A program made the translations under genes and the position numbers. Positions 4,553 to 12,862 of a stretch of 25,699 nt of DNA are shown here, piece by piece; position 1 is the first letter of the stretch; every line of letters starts with the position of its first letter. The notes beneath the pieces were generated by a model that saw only the letters and a program-made list of their open reading frames with translations, was not told the DNA's origin and ran no database searches. Source of the DNA: a virus; the IMG/VR virus record IMGVR_UViG_3300037189_026468, positions 1-25,699 of that record; one strand, 5' to 3'.

Positions 4553-5224
4553 ATGACCAGATTTCTTGCTACCCTCCCGGAGAATTTTGGATTTTTTAAT
4601 CTTGGAACTGTTGAAAGCTATCCTGTTGGTGGCTCAGGGCCAACGGCTTATGGCTCTACTGGCATTTTTGGTTCAACACCATTGCCACCAAGGCCGGGTG
4701 ATAACTTAAACTCTGCAATTGATATTGGTAGTTTTGATAACGTTTACCGTAGCATTAATATAAAAAATACGCATGGCGGCAACAGCCGAATCCAAACCAC
4801 CTTCTATACATTTACACTAAATCGTTCCAGATCCGTACAATTTGTACAGGATTATAGCGAATTTGCATACACATCTAATACAAATCGAAATACTTTACTA
4901 TCCATTTATGTTGTTGAAGGCGGAAACCATCGCAGGGAGTTGCCAATTAATGATAATGGTTTTGTGTGCAATCAGGCCAGCCTTAATTATGACGAAGGAG
5001 ATGACACTCCATTAAGTGATTACAATACTACTCAATTAAATCCAGGTACATATATATTTTTGATCACAAACGATATTCGCTACCTGGAAACAACATACAG
5101 CATCACAATGCAAACATCAATTACCGATTGGCGGTATGTTACGGAAGGGGTTATCGATCGATTGGATTTTGATGCAGTCACCGGGCCGGTCACCGCATCC
5201 CTTGATTTTGGTACCGTGAGATAA
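4553..5224 (+). CDS. Secreted-type beta protein resembling PPC domains
   Basis: The protein has 223 residues. An N-terminal Gly/Pro-rich segment (about 1-48) precedes a beta-rich domain at about 50-190. Its order resembles bacterial pre-peptidase C-terminal (PPC) domains, common in cyanobacteria: GDNLNSAIDIG, then YTFTLNRSRSVQF, then LLSIYVV, then LNPGTYIFLITN and YSITMQ. No signal peptide is evident. The C-terminus (VTASLDFG) resembles cyanobacterial extracellular proteins. It follows the AP2-HNH gene by 4 bases, so the pair is probably co-transcribed. It may be a virion surface or host-derived binding protein; the function is unproven. Confidence 0.55.
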   Translation: MTRFLATLPENFGFFNLGTVESYPVGGSGPTAYGSTGIFGSTPLPPRPGDNLNSAIDIGSFDNVYRSINIKNTHGGNSRIQTTFYTFTLNRSRSVQFVQDYSEFAYTSNTNRNTLLSIYVVEGGNHRRELPINDNGFVCNQASLNYDEGDDTPLSDYNTTQLNPGTYIFLITNDIRYLETTYSITMQTSITDWRYVTEGVIDRLDFDAVTGPVTASLDFGTVR

Positions 5225-7325: not shown

Positions 7326-7958
7326 ATGGTACTAAAGCTTCCGCCAAGTTTAAAGTATGCGCGATACAAGGCAGCTTCTCACGTTTATTCATTGGATACT
7401 GATTGGTTGACACCTGTCGATTATTTACCGTACATCGATGCAGTGCTTGGTGACATTGACTTGGATCCTTGCACTACCGAACGAGCCAATAATGAATTTC
7501 TCAAGGCCAAGCAAATCTATACACCCAAAGAAGATGGCTTGAATATTGAAGAGCCTTGGTGTGGAGTTACCTATATGTTTCCACCAACTTACGGGCGTTG
7601 CTCTTGGAACAAAATACGAGGCACTTACCGGTGGGGTTTGCATAGCGGTAGCAATTCGTCTTCTCCAGCAAAAGCGTGGTTCTTACGTTTGGAGCGTGAA
7701 TGGAAATTGCGTAATGTGCCGGAAGCAATTATGTACGCCACAAACCACGAAACTCTTCGTACTTGCCAACAAATTTGGGACTATCCTGTATGCATACCAA
7801 AAACCCGACCATACTTTATACATGGAAGGACTTTTGAATTTTCTCGAACACCTTTGACTTGGGGTTATTTTGTCTACTTACCCCGACTTGAATACGGATT
7901 TGATCAGGCCACTCGTTTCAAGGAAGTATTTTCTGAATTGGGGGCCGTAATTTGCTAA
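7326..7958 (+). CDS. Phage adenine-methyltransferase-like protein, altered catalytic motif
   Basis: The protein has 210 residues. The opening DTDWLTPVDYLPYIDAVLG and DIDLDPCTTERAN (about 25-55) match the start of phage Dam-type N6-adenine methyltransferases (PF05869), where an aspartate-rich strand binds S-adenosylmethionine. YTPKEDGLNIEEPW then matches the usual edDgL...W.g element. The next motif should be NPPY or DPPY, but here it is MFPPTYG (residues 84-90), with Phe in the Asn/Asp place and an extra Thr. The remaining order (AWFLRLEREW, EAIMYATNHETLR, WDYPVCIPKTRPYF, WGYFVYLPRL) keeps the general fold. The substrate-binding architecture is probably retained and methyl transfer is uncertain. 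Its stop overlaps the stop of the convergent gene by 4 bases. Confidence 0.6.
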   Translation: MVLKLPPSLKYARYKAASHVYSLDTDWLTPVDYLPYIDAVLGDIDLDPCTTERANNEFLKAKQIYTPKEDGLNIEEPWCGVTYMFPPTYGRCSWNKIRGTYRWGLHSGSNSSSPAKAWFLRLEREWKLRNVPEAIMYATNHETLRTCQQIWDYPVCIPKTRPYFIHGRTFEFSRTPLTWGYFVYLPRLEYGFDQATRFKEVFSELGAVIC

Positions 7959-8233
7959 AAATGTCGAGCCCGGAAAGGGTTGCGATAACTGGCTTGCGCG
8001 TCTGTATTGGTTATATTGCTCGGCATATCACTAACAGCTACGGTGCCCCCCATGGCAGGCATGATGACACGACCCTGCTGCTGGCGCTGGTCACCAATGG
8101 GATCTTTATCGGCAAGCCGTTTTTGTTGCACGTATTGATTTAAAAATTGCTGCCCAGTTTTATTATCCTGCGCTGGTTTCATGCCGCGATAACGGTTGTC
8201 AACACCGTATCCTTGACTTCCTTGTGGTTTCAT
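7955..8233 (-). CDS. Small disordered protein with FLNQY motif
   Basis: The protein has 92 residues, Gln/Gly/Asp-rich and probably disordered (MKPQGSQGYGVDNRYRGMKPA). FLNQYVQQKRL lies at residues 30-40, a predicted short helix. Its first five residues recur in the proteins at 8603-9382 and 10014-10169. A middle stretch (GRVIMPAMGGTVAVSDM) could be a short beta hairpin. There is no catalytic or membrane signature. It is divergent from the Nmad1-like gene (29 bases between starts) and convergent with the methyltransferase-like gene. It is likely a virion or assembly component by company; I do not recognise a family. Confidence 0.65.
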   Translation of the reverse strand: MKPQGSQGYGVDNRYRGMKPAQDNKTGQQFLNQYVQQKRLADKDPIGDQRQQQGRVIMPAMGGTVAVSDMPSNITNTDAQASYRNPFRARHF

Positions 8234-8240
8234 GTAATAT
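8213..8240 (+). promoter_or_regulatory. Sigma70-type promoter candidate for the Nmad1-like gene
   Basis: TTGACT at 8213-8218, a 16-base spacer, TAATAT at 8235-8240. Expected initiation near 8247 leaves a leader of about 16 bases before the ATG at 8263. It overlaps the 5' end of the divergent small gene. Confidence 0.45.
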
Positions 8241-8262
8241 ATTCTGACAGCACTGAACGCAG

Positions 8263-8562
8263 ATGTCCACCGAAACCCAGCTTGAAATTGCCAGCGTTTG
8301 CGACGAAGTTAAAGAATTATTGCTCAGCAAAAACGAAAAATATGGTGATTCTGCTTTGAATCCTGCGCGTATCTTTAGCCATGCCTCCGCAGTAGAACAG
8401 CTTTTGGTTCGGATTGATGATAAATTAAATCGAATTCAGAAGGGGGCTGGGCTGCTTGGTAATGATGAAGATGTCATAATGGATTTAATTGGTTACTTGA
8501 TCCTTTTGAAAATTGCATTTAAACGTTGGGCCAAAACACTAGATATTGGGCCTAAATCCTGA
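8263..8562 (+). CDS. Nmad1 (DUF1599)-type nucleotide-modification-associated protein
   Basis: The protein has 99 residues. It follows the family pattern closely: a first helix ending in LLLSKNEKYGDSALNPARIF (about 24-43), then LLVRIDDKLNRIQKG (about 53-67), then DEDVIMDLIGYLILLKIA (about 73-90). The KNxKYGDS and RxxDKxxRI...DxxxDLIGY elements are the hallmarks of Pfam PF07659, called nucleotide-modification-associated domain 1 because it occurs near DNA-modification genes in phages. Its exact reaction is not established; all-alpha MazG-like nucleotide handling has been proposed. The methyltransferase-like gene at 7326 is nearby on the same strand. Its own promoter is at 8213-8240. Confidence 0.75.
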   Translation: MSTETQLEIASVCDEVKELLLSKNEKYGDSALNPARIFSHASAVEQLLVRIDDKLNRIQKGAGLLGNDEDVIMDLIGYLILLKIAFKRWAKTLDIGPKS

Positions 8563-8574
8563 ATACTAATACAA

Positions 8575-8772
8575 ATGGACTACGACGAGCTTCTTTACCA
8601 TTTTACCCCTGAGCTTCAGTTGATTGATTTTCTGGATCAATTGACTTCAAAAAATTCCGTGGTGAGTCCATACCTCCTGGAACAGTATTCCAAATCCGCC
8701 AAAATCGACGAAGAACCTCCCCATTCTGATCCCATTCCACCAGCTTCCGCTCCAAATACTCCATCGCCTTAA
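8575..8772 (+). CDS. Possible small protein overlapping the GH24-like gene antiparallel
   Basis: The protein has 65 residues, starting 12 bases after the Nmad1-like gene. The first 45 residues look like ordinary helical protein (MDYDELLYHFTPELQLIDFL), and the rest is a Pro/Ser-rich tail. It overlaps the C-terminal 170 bases of the minus-strand GH24-like gene, so at most one of the two overlapping ends may be under protein selection. I report it because of its position and credible N-terminus, but it may be a chance frame. No function can be proposed. Confidence 0.35.
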   Translation: MDYDELLYHFTPELQLIDFLDQLTSKNSVVSPYLLEQYSKSAKIDEEPPHSDPIPPASAPNTPSP

Positions 8773-9382
8773 TCTGGTTCGGGGTCTGGTTGTAGCATTC
8801 TGCTACGTTAAGCAAACACTGTTTTAACTTGCATTTATGCTTATACAGCGTAGGGATTTCTTTGTCAGGCGCCAAGAACATATTGAGTTCCGCTCGGCGG
8901 CGCTGCAGTAAAAATGGAGCTTTGTGGCGATAAATTGGATTGATATAAGGCGACCACTCCCGGATGATGTCATTTTTTGAAGCGCGTTTATTGATTAACT
9001 CCAGTAAACGGCATTCTTTGAATGAAGGGATGCCAATGCTGTGCGCATAGCTCAAGATAGCCCCCTTACGCTTATCGTTTAAAGGCATCTGTACGTAATG
9101 CTCTACTAATTCAGCAAAAGGCTTCAAATCCTCGACTAATTGTTTAACGCAATCTTCTTTTGTAACTCGCAGCCCAGGACCCACACGCCGCCCAAACATC
9201 TTAGAACTAGCAAAACCAATACGCCATTCTTTATCAAAACCATCCTTGTATGGACGATACATCTCCATACCGACATGGGTTCGCATGCTGGTATAAAAAA
9301 CTATTAGCTTGATTCCGTATTGATTTAAAAAAGAAGAAACCTGTTCTTCGTTAGGCGACTCTGGCGCTTCCGCTGTACTCAA
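8603..9382 (-). CDS. GH24 (T4-lysozyme-like) domain protein with altered active site
   Basis: The protein has 259 residues. After a short head with FLNQY at 18-22, residues about 38-172 follow the order of phage GH24 muramidases: YRPYKDG (42-48), EWRIGF (52-57), VGPGLRVTKEDC (67-78), LNDKRKGAILSYAHSIGIPSF (101-121), and the terminal RRRAELNMF (161-169). D47 fits the catalytic Asp. The catalytic Glu would be expected at about residue 38, where Gly stands; E40 is two residues off. The Thr of TIG is Arg54. A further 85-residue helical tail (KAMEYLERKLVEW, RRFWRIWNTVPGGM) is extra to the family. It may be a peptidoglycan-active virion protein or an inactive structural derivative. Its start overlaps the end of the 9351-9749 gene by 32 bases. 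Confidence 0.55.
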   Translation of the reverse strand: MSTAEAPESPNEEQVSSFLNQYGIKLIVFYTSMRTHVGMEMYRPYKDGFDKEWRIGFASSKMFGRRVGPGLRVTKEDCVKQLVEDLKPFAELVEHYVQMPLNDKRKGAILSYAHSIGIPSFKECRLLELINKRASKNDIIREWSPYINPIYRHKAPFLLQRRRAELNMFLAPDKEIPTLYKHKCKLKQCLLNVAECYNQTPNQIKAMEYLERKLVEWDQNGEVLRRFWRIWNTVPGGMDSPRNFLKSIDPENQSTEAQG

Positions 9383-9749
9383 CGCTATACCCCTCGAACG
9401 TCAGCATCACAATATACACCTGACCCGCTCCAGAAGTGGTGGCACCTACAACGCCTTTACCCTTGCCAGTTTTGATAATGTCACCAAAAGATGTGTAGCC
9501 AGATGGAACCACCAAAGCGGTGCCATTTTGACGGAACAATTTAATGGATTCCACACCGGTTGAACGGTCAATCGTAAAGCTGAGAGTACCGTTGGTGGCG
9601 CTAGAAGTCAGCCTATAAAAACGTGTCATCAAACCACGATCACCGGCCGGTGGGTTGTGCCCCAAGTAAGTGACAAGGGTACCGCCATCAAGAGCTTTTA
9701 CGGAGCCGGTATCAAGTGTGCCTTTGATGGCGTAGTTAGTGGTGGCCAT
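9351..9749 (-). CDS. Beta-rich hypothetical virion protein (132 aa)
   Basis: The sequence is beta-rich with many Gly, Thr, Ser and Val: LDGGTLVTYLG, RFYRLTSSATNGTLSFTIDRST, SIKLFRQNGTALVV, QVYIVMLTFEGYSVEYSG. It has no enzyme motif, signal peptide or membrane segment. The composition is like small decoration or tail proteins such as the pair at 11104-11799. ATG at 9749 follows the NblA-like gene by 4 bases, and the 3' end overlaps the GH24-like gene, so it belongs to one minus-strand transcript. The family is not recognised. Confidence 0.65.
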   Translation of the reverse strand: MATTNYAIKGTLDTGSVKALDGGTLVTYLGHNPPAGDRGLMTRFYRLTSSATNGTLSFTIDRSTGVESIKLFRQNGTALVVPSGYTSFGDIIKTGKGKGVVGATTSGAGQVYIVMLTFEGYSVEYSGSARVA

Positions 9750-9753
9750 GGGA

Positions 9754-9975
9754 TCAAGAAATTTGGCTTTCGGTTAGGAATTTGAGGTTGATATCAGCGT
9801 CAATGCCATGATCCTTGAGAATACTCAAGAACATTTGGCGATCGATCATCTTTTGATGGAAGAGATCAATAAAAGCTTCTTCAAGCTCATCACGGTCAAG
9901 ATCTCTGGCATACAGGGCTGCGGCATGAATTTGAAACTCCGCATCCATGGGCAGTCCCGAAACTTCCGAGTTCAT
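9754..9975 (-). CDS. nblA: NblA-like phycobilisome degradation adaptor
   Basis: The protein has 73 residues. NblA is a small helical cyanobacterial and cyanophage protein that binds phycobiliproteins and brings them to Clp protease, dismantling the light-harvesting antenna. The match here is by order. DAEFQIHAAALYARDLDRDE (11-30) corresponds to the first helix and loop. LEEAFIDLFHQKMIDRQMFLSILK (31-54) corresponds to the second helix, ending in the Leu-Lys pair (L53, K54) at the position important for phycobiliprotein binding in NblA. A tail of about 19 residues is longer than in host NblA (usually near 60 aa in total). It sits among virion-type minus-strand genes with 4 bases to the next gene. 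An unrelated two-helix protein is the main alternative. Confidence 0.65.
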   Translation of the reverse strand: MNSEVSGLPMDAEFQIHAAALYARDLDRDELEEAFIDLFHQKMIDRQMFLSILKDHGIDADINLKFLTESQIS

Positions 9976-10013
9976 TGGCCGTCCAATACTGGATTAATTC
10001 TAGCAGCAATTAT

Positions 10014-10169
10014 TTAAACCATGTCGCGGTGCGGTTGAGCCGCCATGCCTCGGATATCCGTTGCAAATGAAGGTAGATCTGGGCCATCCTCAAACACACT
10101 GGGGGCGAATGCAGGCAGTCGTTCAGTGACGTACTGGTTTAAAAAAGCTTTCCCATCTTGATGATTCAT
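10014..10169 (-). CDS. Mini-protein with FLNQY motif (51 aa)
   Basis: The sequence begins MNHQDGKAFLNQYVTERLPAF and ends with DIRGMAAQPHRDMV. FLNQYV at residues 9-14 matches FLNQYV of the 7955-8233 protein and FLNQY of the GH24-like protein, but with different codons (AAC CAG instead of AAT CAA), which argues for a protein-level rather than a DNA-level repeat. The rest is Pro-rich and probably disordered. It lies 38 bases upstream of the NblA-like gene in the same direction. The function is unknown. Confidence 0.55.
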   Translation of the reverse strand: MNHQDGKAFLNQYVTERLPAFAPSVFEDGPDLPSFATDIRGMAAQPHRDMV

Positions 10170-10309: not shown

Positions 10310-11107
10310 ATGGACATTGAATTAGTGCTTCGCCACATGATCGCCAGTGCCTGCTCTGGGGTCAGCAAAAAACAGATCATACGTTTCCTGGAAGAGCACA
10401 ATGTAGAAAAAACGGAGATTTCAATGCTGATAAAAGCGGCAAATTTCAAAGAAGAACCGGAAGTCATTGATTACGAATATTTATATGATCGCCCAAAACC
10501 AACAAAGGCAATTAATCATGCTCCGTTGGGCTCCAAGGTTGCTCTATACGTTCTAGATAATTTCTTGACAACAGAAGAATGCAAAAAGTTGATAGCTCTT
10601 ATTGATAGAGAAAAACAACGCTCAACAGTTGCGGATCCAACTGACAGCGGCCTTGTGGGATCTTATCGCACCAGTAGTACAGCAAATCTGCACTCCTTCA
10701 CGGATCCAGTTGTGATTGAGGTAAATGAAAGGCTTGGAAGGCTTCTTGATTTAGATTTTTTCCTTGGGGAAGCTTTGCAAGGGCAAAAATACAAACCCGG
10801 CGAATACTATAAGGAACACAATGATTATTTTCATCCTCGAACAGCGGAGTTCAAAACTTACACGGAATGGATGGGGCAACGCACTTGGACAACGATGGTC
10901 TATTTAAACGACGTAGAAGAAGGCGGCGAAACTTACTTCAAACGTTTAAATCGTAAATTCAAGCCCAAAGAGGGCACTGTTGTGTTTTGGAGTAATCTAT
11001 ACCGCAACGGTAAAGTCAACCCTAAGACCCTGCATGAAGCCTTGCCTCCAATAAAAGGAGACAAGTACATAATCACCAAATGGTGGAGAAGTTGGCCCCT
11101 TATCTAG
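10310..11107 (+). CDS. 2-oxoglutarate/Fe(II) oxygenase, prolyl 4-hydroxylase type
   Basis: The protein has 265 residues. An N-terminal helical region (1-50) precedes the catalytic domain (about 75-262). The iron ligands are visible as H170 and D172 in YKPGEYYKEHNDYF and H242 in TLHEALPPIKGDKYIITKWW; K252 is the expected 2-oxoglutarate-binding Lys. TTMVYLNDVEEGGETYF (193-209) and GTVVFWSN (222-229) are also typical of P4H-like enzymes. These enzymes hydroxylate proline or another side chain using O2 and 2-oxoglutarate, and are frequent cargo of cyanophages. The substrate here is unknown. It stands alone on the plus strand with its own promoter, and its TAG shares CTAG with the stop of the convergent gene. 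Confidence 0.9.
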   Translation: MDIELVLRHMIASACSGVSKKQIIRFLEEHNVEKTEISMLIKAANFKEEPEVIDYEYLYDRPKPTKAINHAPLGSKVALYVLDNFLTTEECKKLIALIDREKQRSTVADPTDSGLVGSYRTSSTANLHSFTDPVVIEVNERLGRLLDLDFFLGEALQGQKYKPGEYYKEHNDYFHPRTAEFKTYTEWMGQRTWTTMVYLNDVEEGGETYFKRLNRKFKPKEGTVVFWSNLYRNGKVNPKTLHEALPPIKGDKYIITKWWRSWPLI

Positions 11108-12607: not shown

Positions 12608-12862
12608 TCAACTATTGTAATTAGCGGCCTGTGCAGGGGCGTTTAAGGCCATGCTTTCTGCGCCATTATTCAAATGATCCCATTCAGATGCAACTCGATA
12701 TTGCTTGTGTTGATTTAATACATCTTGCAAAACTGCTGCATACTGCTTGGCAAATTGCACAGGATTTGATTGTGGTTGCCCCTGTGCTTGCGTTTGTCCA
12801 GGAACAGGGGCCGTGCTGCCTTGCTGTGGGTTAACTGGCTGTCCAGCAGAGGTAGCTATCAT
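12608..12862 (-). CDS. Gln/Pro-rich small protein, probable virion component
   Basis: The protein has 84 residues. The first 33 are low complexity (QPVNPQQGSTAPVPGQTQAQGQPQ stretch). A predicted helix follows (VQFAKQYAAVLQDVLNQHKQY, about 35-55), then an Ala-rich end. The layout is the same as in other disordered minus-strand proteins here (433-900, 7955-8233). VLNQHKQY is only loosely like the FLNQY motif. Its start lies 32 bases inside the end of the HNH gene upstream, and it is followed after 2 bases by the DUF6321-like gene. Confidence 0.6.
   Translation of the reverse strand: MIATSAGQPVNPQQGSTAPVPGQTQAQGQPQSNPVQFAKQYAAVLQDVLNQHKQYRVASEWDHLNNGAESMALNAPAQAANYNS

Follow-up and report, generated by a model that had tools for sequence, protein, structure and literature searches.

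What do otherwise unlike proteins of one virus have in common when they carry the same short peptide? This question is raised by the virus record IMGVR_UViG_3300037189_026468, of which positions 1 to 25,699 (25.7 kb; hereafter the window, 25,699 nt in full) were analysed. The peptide FLNQY occurs here in three products of the minus strand, i.e., at residues 30-34 of the 7955-8233 product, at residues 18-22 of the lysozyme-like 8603-9382 product and at residues 9-13 of the 10014-10169 product, and the similar FLNNF stands at residues 82-86 of the minus-strand 433-900 product. In a preliminary description of the window, these copies were read as a short linear motif that recruits cargo, including the lysozyme-like protein, to a common virion partner. 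The best explanation overall, to which we give a probability of about one half (0.52), is a docking motif specific to the Synechococcus phage S-EIV1 lineage, in which an amphipathic helix within disordered stretches of unrelated late proteins would bind a common virion partner. That the motif is real and functional, whatever its exact task, is very probable.

The four copies were confirmed by coordinates, as FLNQY(V) at 8132-8146, FLNQY(G) at 9317-9331, FLNQY(V) at 10131-10145 and FLNNF(L) at 643-657, all on the minus strand. The window alone, nevertheless, proves nothing: the recurrence of FLNQY is not significant there, because a 5-mer common to at least three proteins appeared in 418 of 2000 trials (21%) when the 46 window proteins were shuffled, and because the real window holds two further 5-mers of this kind. 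The claim on codons was correct, in that FLNQY is encoded by TTTTTAAATCAATAC at both 8132-8146 and 9317-9331 and by the synonymous TTTTTAAACCAGTAC at 10131-10145. Moreover, the motif codons of ten close relatives differ by synonymous changes and, therefore, the conservation of the motif acts at the protein level, as had been proposed. A regulatory element in the DNA within the coding sequence, for which the 15 identical bases of two window copies could speak, is in consequence already refuted, as every real copy lies in the same reading frame, relatives differ synonymously, and wider orthologs retain F, L and Y/F but differ in the two central residues.

Exact FLNQY proved to be only one variant and was rejected as too narrow a definition of the motif, given forms such as FLKEYI, FLTRYI, YLKTYI, FAQDYA, FLNDYI and others. 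Orthologs of the 7955-8233 product, supplied by about 80 neighbourhoods, read FLNQYI, FLKEYI, FLTRYI, FLNRYI, FVKNYI, FLSQYM and so on. Those of the 10014-10169 product (family 52) have the consensus [FYH]LxxY[VIL]xERLP, and those of the minus-strand 12608-12862 product, a small late protein of family 53 and its relatives, have F[AL]xxY[AVI]. The last protein was an addition to the original list, with FAKQY at residues 37-41 (12740-12754; FAKQYA at 37-42). The window copies in 7955-8233, 10014-10169, 433-900 and 12608-12862 exemplify a looser motif that reads approximately [AGS]-x-x-F-[LA]-x-x-[YF]-[AVIL]. One further FLNQY, at position 4555 of locus L013, was rejected as a gene since the stretch contains stops.

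The looser motif was then counted across families. Genes from 160 neighbourhoods (of the 7955 type and around the terminase) were clustered with those of the window and its relatives into 62 families, each counted with at least 6 nonredundant members, and a pattern was taken as conserved when found in at least 40% of members and at least three times as often as in shuffles. F[LA]xx[YF] was conserved in seven of these families, namely 6 (7955), 33 (433-900), 35, 43, 52 (10014), 53 (12608 type) and 57. By comparison, patterns of the same residues with altered geometry were conserved in 0-2 families and the reversed pattern in one. Across nine families (the seven plus 12 and 31), the extended consensus is a small residue at -3, Lys at -2, F, [LA], two polar residues, [YF] and an aliphatic residue at +5; these flank preferences, at -3, -2 and +5, formed no part of the search pattern and recur in held-out families. 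The motif stands as early as residue 9 and as late as the last 12 residues, being near the N-terminus in families 52, 31 and 12, central in families 6 and 35, and C-terminal in families 43 and 57; in family 33 it stands at several different positions among members.

Among the proteins that carry the motif are two likely cell-wall hydrolases, the products of neighbouring genes located next to the head genes. One is an SLT transglycosylase (Pfam SLT, up to 5.6e-19) and the other a putative peptidase, which we take to be of the M15 type from its sequence features; a Pfam search of the latter protein gave no match. In the relatives G012 and G014, both enzymes end with a proline/glutamine-rich linker, presumably disordered to judge by its P/Q-rich sequence, and then FLNDFI, YLTDFL, FLSDFL or FLSNYL, often followed by DPxxLLxxAF; the SLT protein of the relative G004 has DPVTFANSYAARL. 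After 80 loci of the second (M15-type) gene had been fetched, 39 dereplicated SLT and M15 tails were scored, and F[LA]xx[YF] was found in 22 and [FY][LA]xx[YF] in 26 of them, as against a shuffled mean of 1.1 (maximum 5 in 1000) and none of the 39 for the reversed pattern. These tails were gathered after the pattern was fixed, but the choice of this family had been prompted by a few members in which the motif was already evident. Frequency above composition, which the window alone does not provide, is found in the relatives, both in the families and in these tails.

The tails of the two enzymes also resemble each other in a phage-specific manner. Between M15 and SLT tails of 10 dereplicated phages, the mean local score was 114 within a phage and 50 between phages (0 of 20000 permutations). 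Such likeness is expected from docking to one co-evolving partner, but would also result from duplication of the tail or from gene conversion by itself. At locus L245, the tails encoded by the adjacent M15-type and SLT genes, about 60 residues long, are nearly identical, which suggests recent copying of the tail or gene conversion.

Copies of the extended motif are concentrated on the late strand. In five relatives with long contigs, 27 late-strand and 5 early-strand copies were found (P=0.005, an approximate value), whereas shuffles gave 11.1 and 7.3 copies and the reversed pattern 5 and 5; the residues scanned amounted to 75.8 thousand late and 46.8 thousand early. Late and early refer to the strand relative to the terminase where this was found and, in G011 and G012, to the strand carrying the orthologous late genes.

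The proposed mechanism follows from the geometry of the motif. Positions -3, 0, +1, +4 and +5 share one face of an alpha-helix. In the AlphaFold2 (AF2) model of the 7955-8233 product (92 aa), a single helix at residues 25-42 spans the motif and the remainder, of low confidence, appears disordered, as the description of these proteins as mostly disordered would have it. We infer that F, L/A, Y/F and the following aliphatic residue form one helix face that would pack into a hydrophobic groove of a shared partner. This partner would most likely be a virion component near the portal or on the inside of the head, and the small proteins and the cell-wall hydrolases would be taken into or held in the particle and delivered at infection. 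When the capsid and portal proteins were compared by sequence search (E up to 1) with solved structures for a candidate groove, no match was found. Docking of cargo to a virion partner, taken by itself, is an evenly balanced proposition. A more far-reaching version is tentative and falls somewhat short of that: across the lineage, a single degenerate helix motif, at any point of a disordered region, would direct at least ten unrelated proteins to one receptor site in the virion, two hydrolases with co-evolving tails among them.

Several observations weigh against the docking interpretation. S-EIV1 itself has no late excess (2 late and 2 early copies), and about one third of the nonredundant members of the 7955 family have AAARAV at the position of the motif; a subclade of this family is without the motif (GKRAAARAVAQRR). 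The F form is missing from 17 of the 39 hydrolase tails and the [FY] form also from 13. Of the control patterns, three that use other residues are conserved in 3-6 families, mostly different ones. The helix of the 7955-8233 product is predicted at low confidence (predicted local distance difference test, pLDDT, 64-69), and the motif windows are only moderately amphipathic, 23% of them lying above the 95th percentile of hydrophobic moment. The location in the virion is suggested only by gene order beside capsid and portal genes. In addition, the pattern was generalised after part of the data had been seen and the members are related, which makes the P-values approximate.

The strongest competing explanation is shared descent, by which a single module, a tail or a small protein, would have been duplicated and joined to many late genes; the motif stretches would be what is left of this module, which may still dock something. 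Within a phage, the M15 and SLT tails do indeed resemble each other along 50-80 residues, almost perfectly in L245. A profile alignment of the 7955 and 10014 families extends over 20 columns (hhalign 51%), and both contain a further motif, [YF]x[VAT]D[NQ]R (DYDVDNRY and SFTVDQRY). Outside the tails, however, the likeness between families is only as long as the motif itself (hhalign 1% and 23% for other pairs), the two shared motifs stand in swapped order in the 7955 and 10014 families, and the positions vary within family 33. Shared descent is regarded as possible at perhaps half the weight of docking.

Recognition of the motif by a host factor or a phage protease, as a targeting or regulatory signal (e.g., for recruitment or cleavage after ejection or during maturation) rather than for virion docking, is unlikely. 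It would suit a short, position-independent motif in probably disordered regions, some copies of which lie near the C-terminus (families 43 and 57). The concentration in late genes, including hydrolases encoded beside head genes, speaks against it, and evidence for either a host factor or a protease was found nowhere in this analysis. Chance, together with the general helix preferences of disordered proteins rich in Q, A and N, is less likely still and is already largely refuted. While it explains how a 5-mer can be common to three window proteins, as in the shuffles above, and holds for the FLNQY of the lysozyme-like protein, the forward pattern is enriched and the reversed pattern, equally amphipathic, is not (one family and none of the 39 tails); this direction-specificity, the flank preferences of the held-out families and the late-strand excess all speak against it. 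Setting these alternatives beside the docking motif of the S-EIV1 lineage, the latter retains the highest probability.

The lysozyme-like protein of 8603-9382 was rejected as a motif-bearing cargo. This GH24 product matches Pfam PF00959 (Phage_lysozyme) at 1.2e-13 and has a lysozyme fold, with Z 16.5 over 148 residues at 24% identity to 8app and a Foldseek E of 6e-8; its alignment with solved lysozymes (Z up to 16.5) begins at residue 16. The AF2 model has a mean pLDDT of 77 and a helix at residues 21-30 (pLDDT 94), so that FLNQY stands at the start of the first helix of a folded protein and not in a disordered one, contrary to what had been described. The orthologs have PFL[NT]xx[GA][IV]xLI at this place; most carry T, D, E, K or L instead of the Tyr of FLNQY, and Y is seen in 5 rows. 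Because the segment begins the lysozyme fold and the Tyr is not conserved, FLNQY in this protein is coincidental. The earlier expectation of conservation in orthologs stands for the 7955 and 10014 families, in the form of the looser motif, and fails for GH24; the idea of a lysozyme-like cargo likewise fails for GH24, whereas the SLT and M15-type hydrolases carry the motif in their tails, which fits docking. The recruitment proposal of the preliminary description is thus upheld in part, with other cell-wall enzymes as the cargo and a degenerate motif in place of exact FLNQY.

When sequence patterns were compared, the 8603-9382 product and its orthologs were seen to have LIxxYTP...WRIGYG, without the usual FEG...WTIGYG active-site pattern of GH24 phage lysozymes, which holds the catalytic Glu and Thr and with whose fold that of the 8603-9382 product agrees. 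Many of the same contigs encode a second GH24 protein of normal appearance (LIKEFEG...LTIGYG). Possibly, the 8603-9382 protein has lost catalysis and its lysozyme fold now serves another role.

The small motif proteins of the window gave no confident match in Pfam and PHROGs searches. The 7955-8233 product, a small, probably disordered late protein of family 6, is laid out as VDNRY...GxxFLxxYI...YxFKNAF; the 10014-10169 product is a small late protein of 51 aa, and the 433-900 product of family 33 is a presumably disordered late protein. Plus-strand genes, e.g., 10310-11107, are interleaved among these minus-strand late genes, an order that is retained in relatives; judged by eye, the 10310-11107 product resembles a 2-oxoglutarate oxygenase.

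Other viral contigs encode close relatives of the 7955, 8603 and 10014 products, with the gene order preserved. Capsid and terminase genes are absent from the window, and the phage was placed through its relatives. In G004, a close relative of 42 kb, the capsid protein is 71% identical to that of S-EIV1, the sole isolate matched, and in G009 (84 kb) the terminase is 65% identical to the S-EIV1 terminase. Judging by these sequence identities, the window phage is classed as a member of the S-EIV1 lineage, which is widespread (PMC5332604; PMC8790148). The terminase large subunit has 1202 aa in G004 (L016:1228-4836), 846 aa in S-EIV1 (L030:14080-16620) and 507 aa in G009, and inteins are probably the cause of the greater length in G004 and S-EIV1. 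Both ends of the G009 contig (the start of L021 and the end of L025) overlap within one gene and, therefore, its genome is probably circular or terminally redundant. In many late proteins of G009 (L021-L025), the C-terminus is formed by Tyr and a following aliphatic residue (YV, NYL, NYA), and 13 of the 17 members of family 37 have such an ending.

Among known systems, the capsid targeting sequence (CTS) of phage T4 offers the closest working parallel. The T4 CTS is N-terminal and is removed by the prohead protease. Like it, the S-EIV1-lineage motif is a short conserved peptide and the sole common feature of otherwise unlike late proteins, but it differs in sequence, is N-terminal, central or C-terminal, and is carried by hydrolases. 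It would, by analogy, work like the CTS system without being a member of it. In T4, the internal proteins are diverse cargo whose only common feature is a conserved targeting sequence (PMC3012670). The motif also resembles the short linear motifs that become helical on binding, with about 9 residues, few defined positions, and varied placement in probably disordered regions of unrelated proteins; it recurs in non-homologous proteins above composition, as these motifs do, yet is found in one phage lineage. By comparison with the virion-associated SLT and M15-type peptidoglycan hydrolases and ejection proteins of tailed phages, the enzyme pair described here is alike in having an SLT domain beside the head genes and unlike in sharing a phage-specific C-terminal tail that bears the motif.

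How phages choose the small proteins and enzymes that enter the particle is well understood in few systems, such as T4. If the docking interpretation is true, a position-independent motif would allow likely virion cargo to be read from sequence, which would be useful in a cyanophage lineage that is widespread and in which most late genes lack annotation, and could serve as a tag for loading foreign proteins into S-EIV1-lineage particles. It would also give dozens of small unknown proteins of these phages a testable function.

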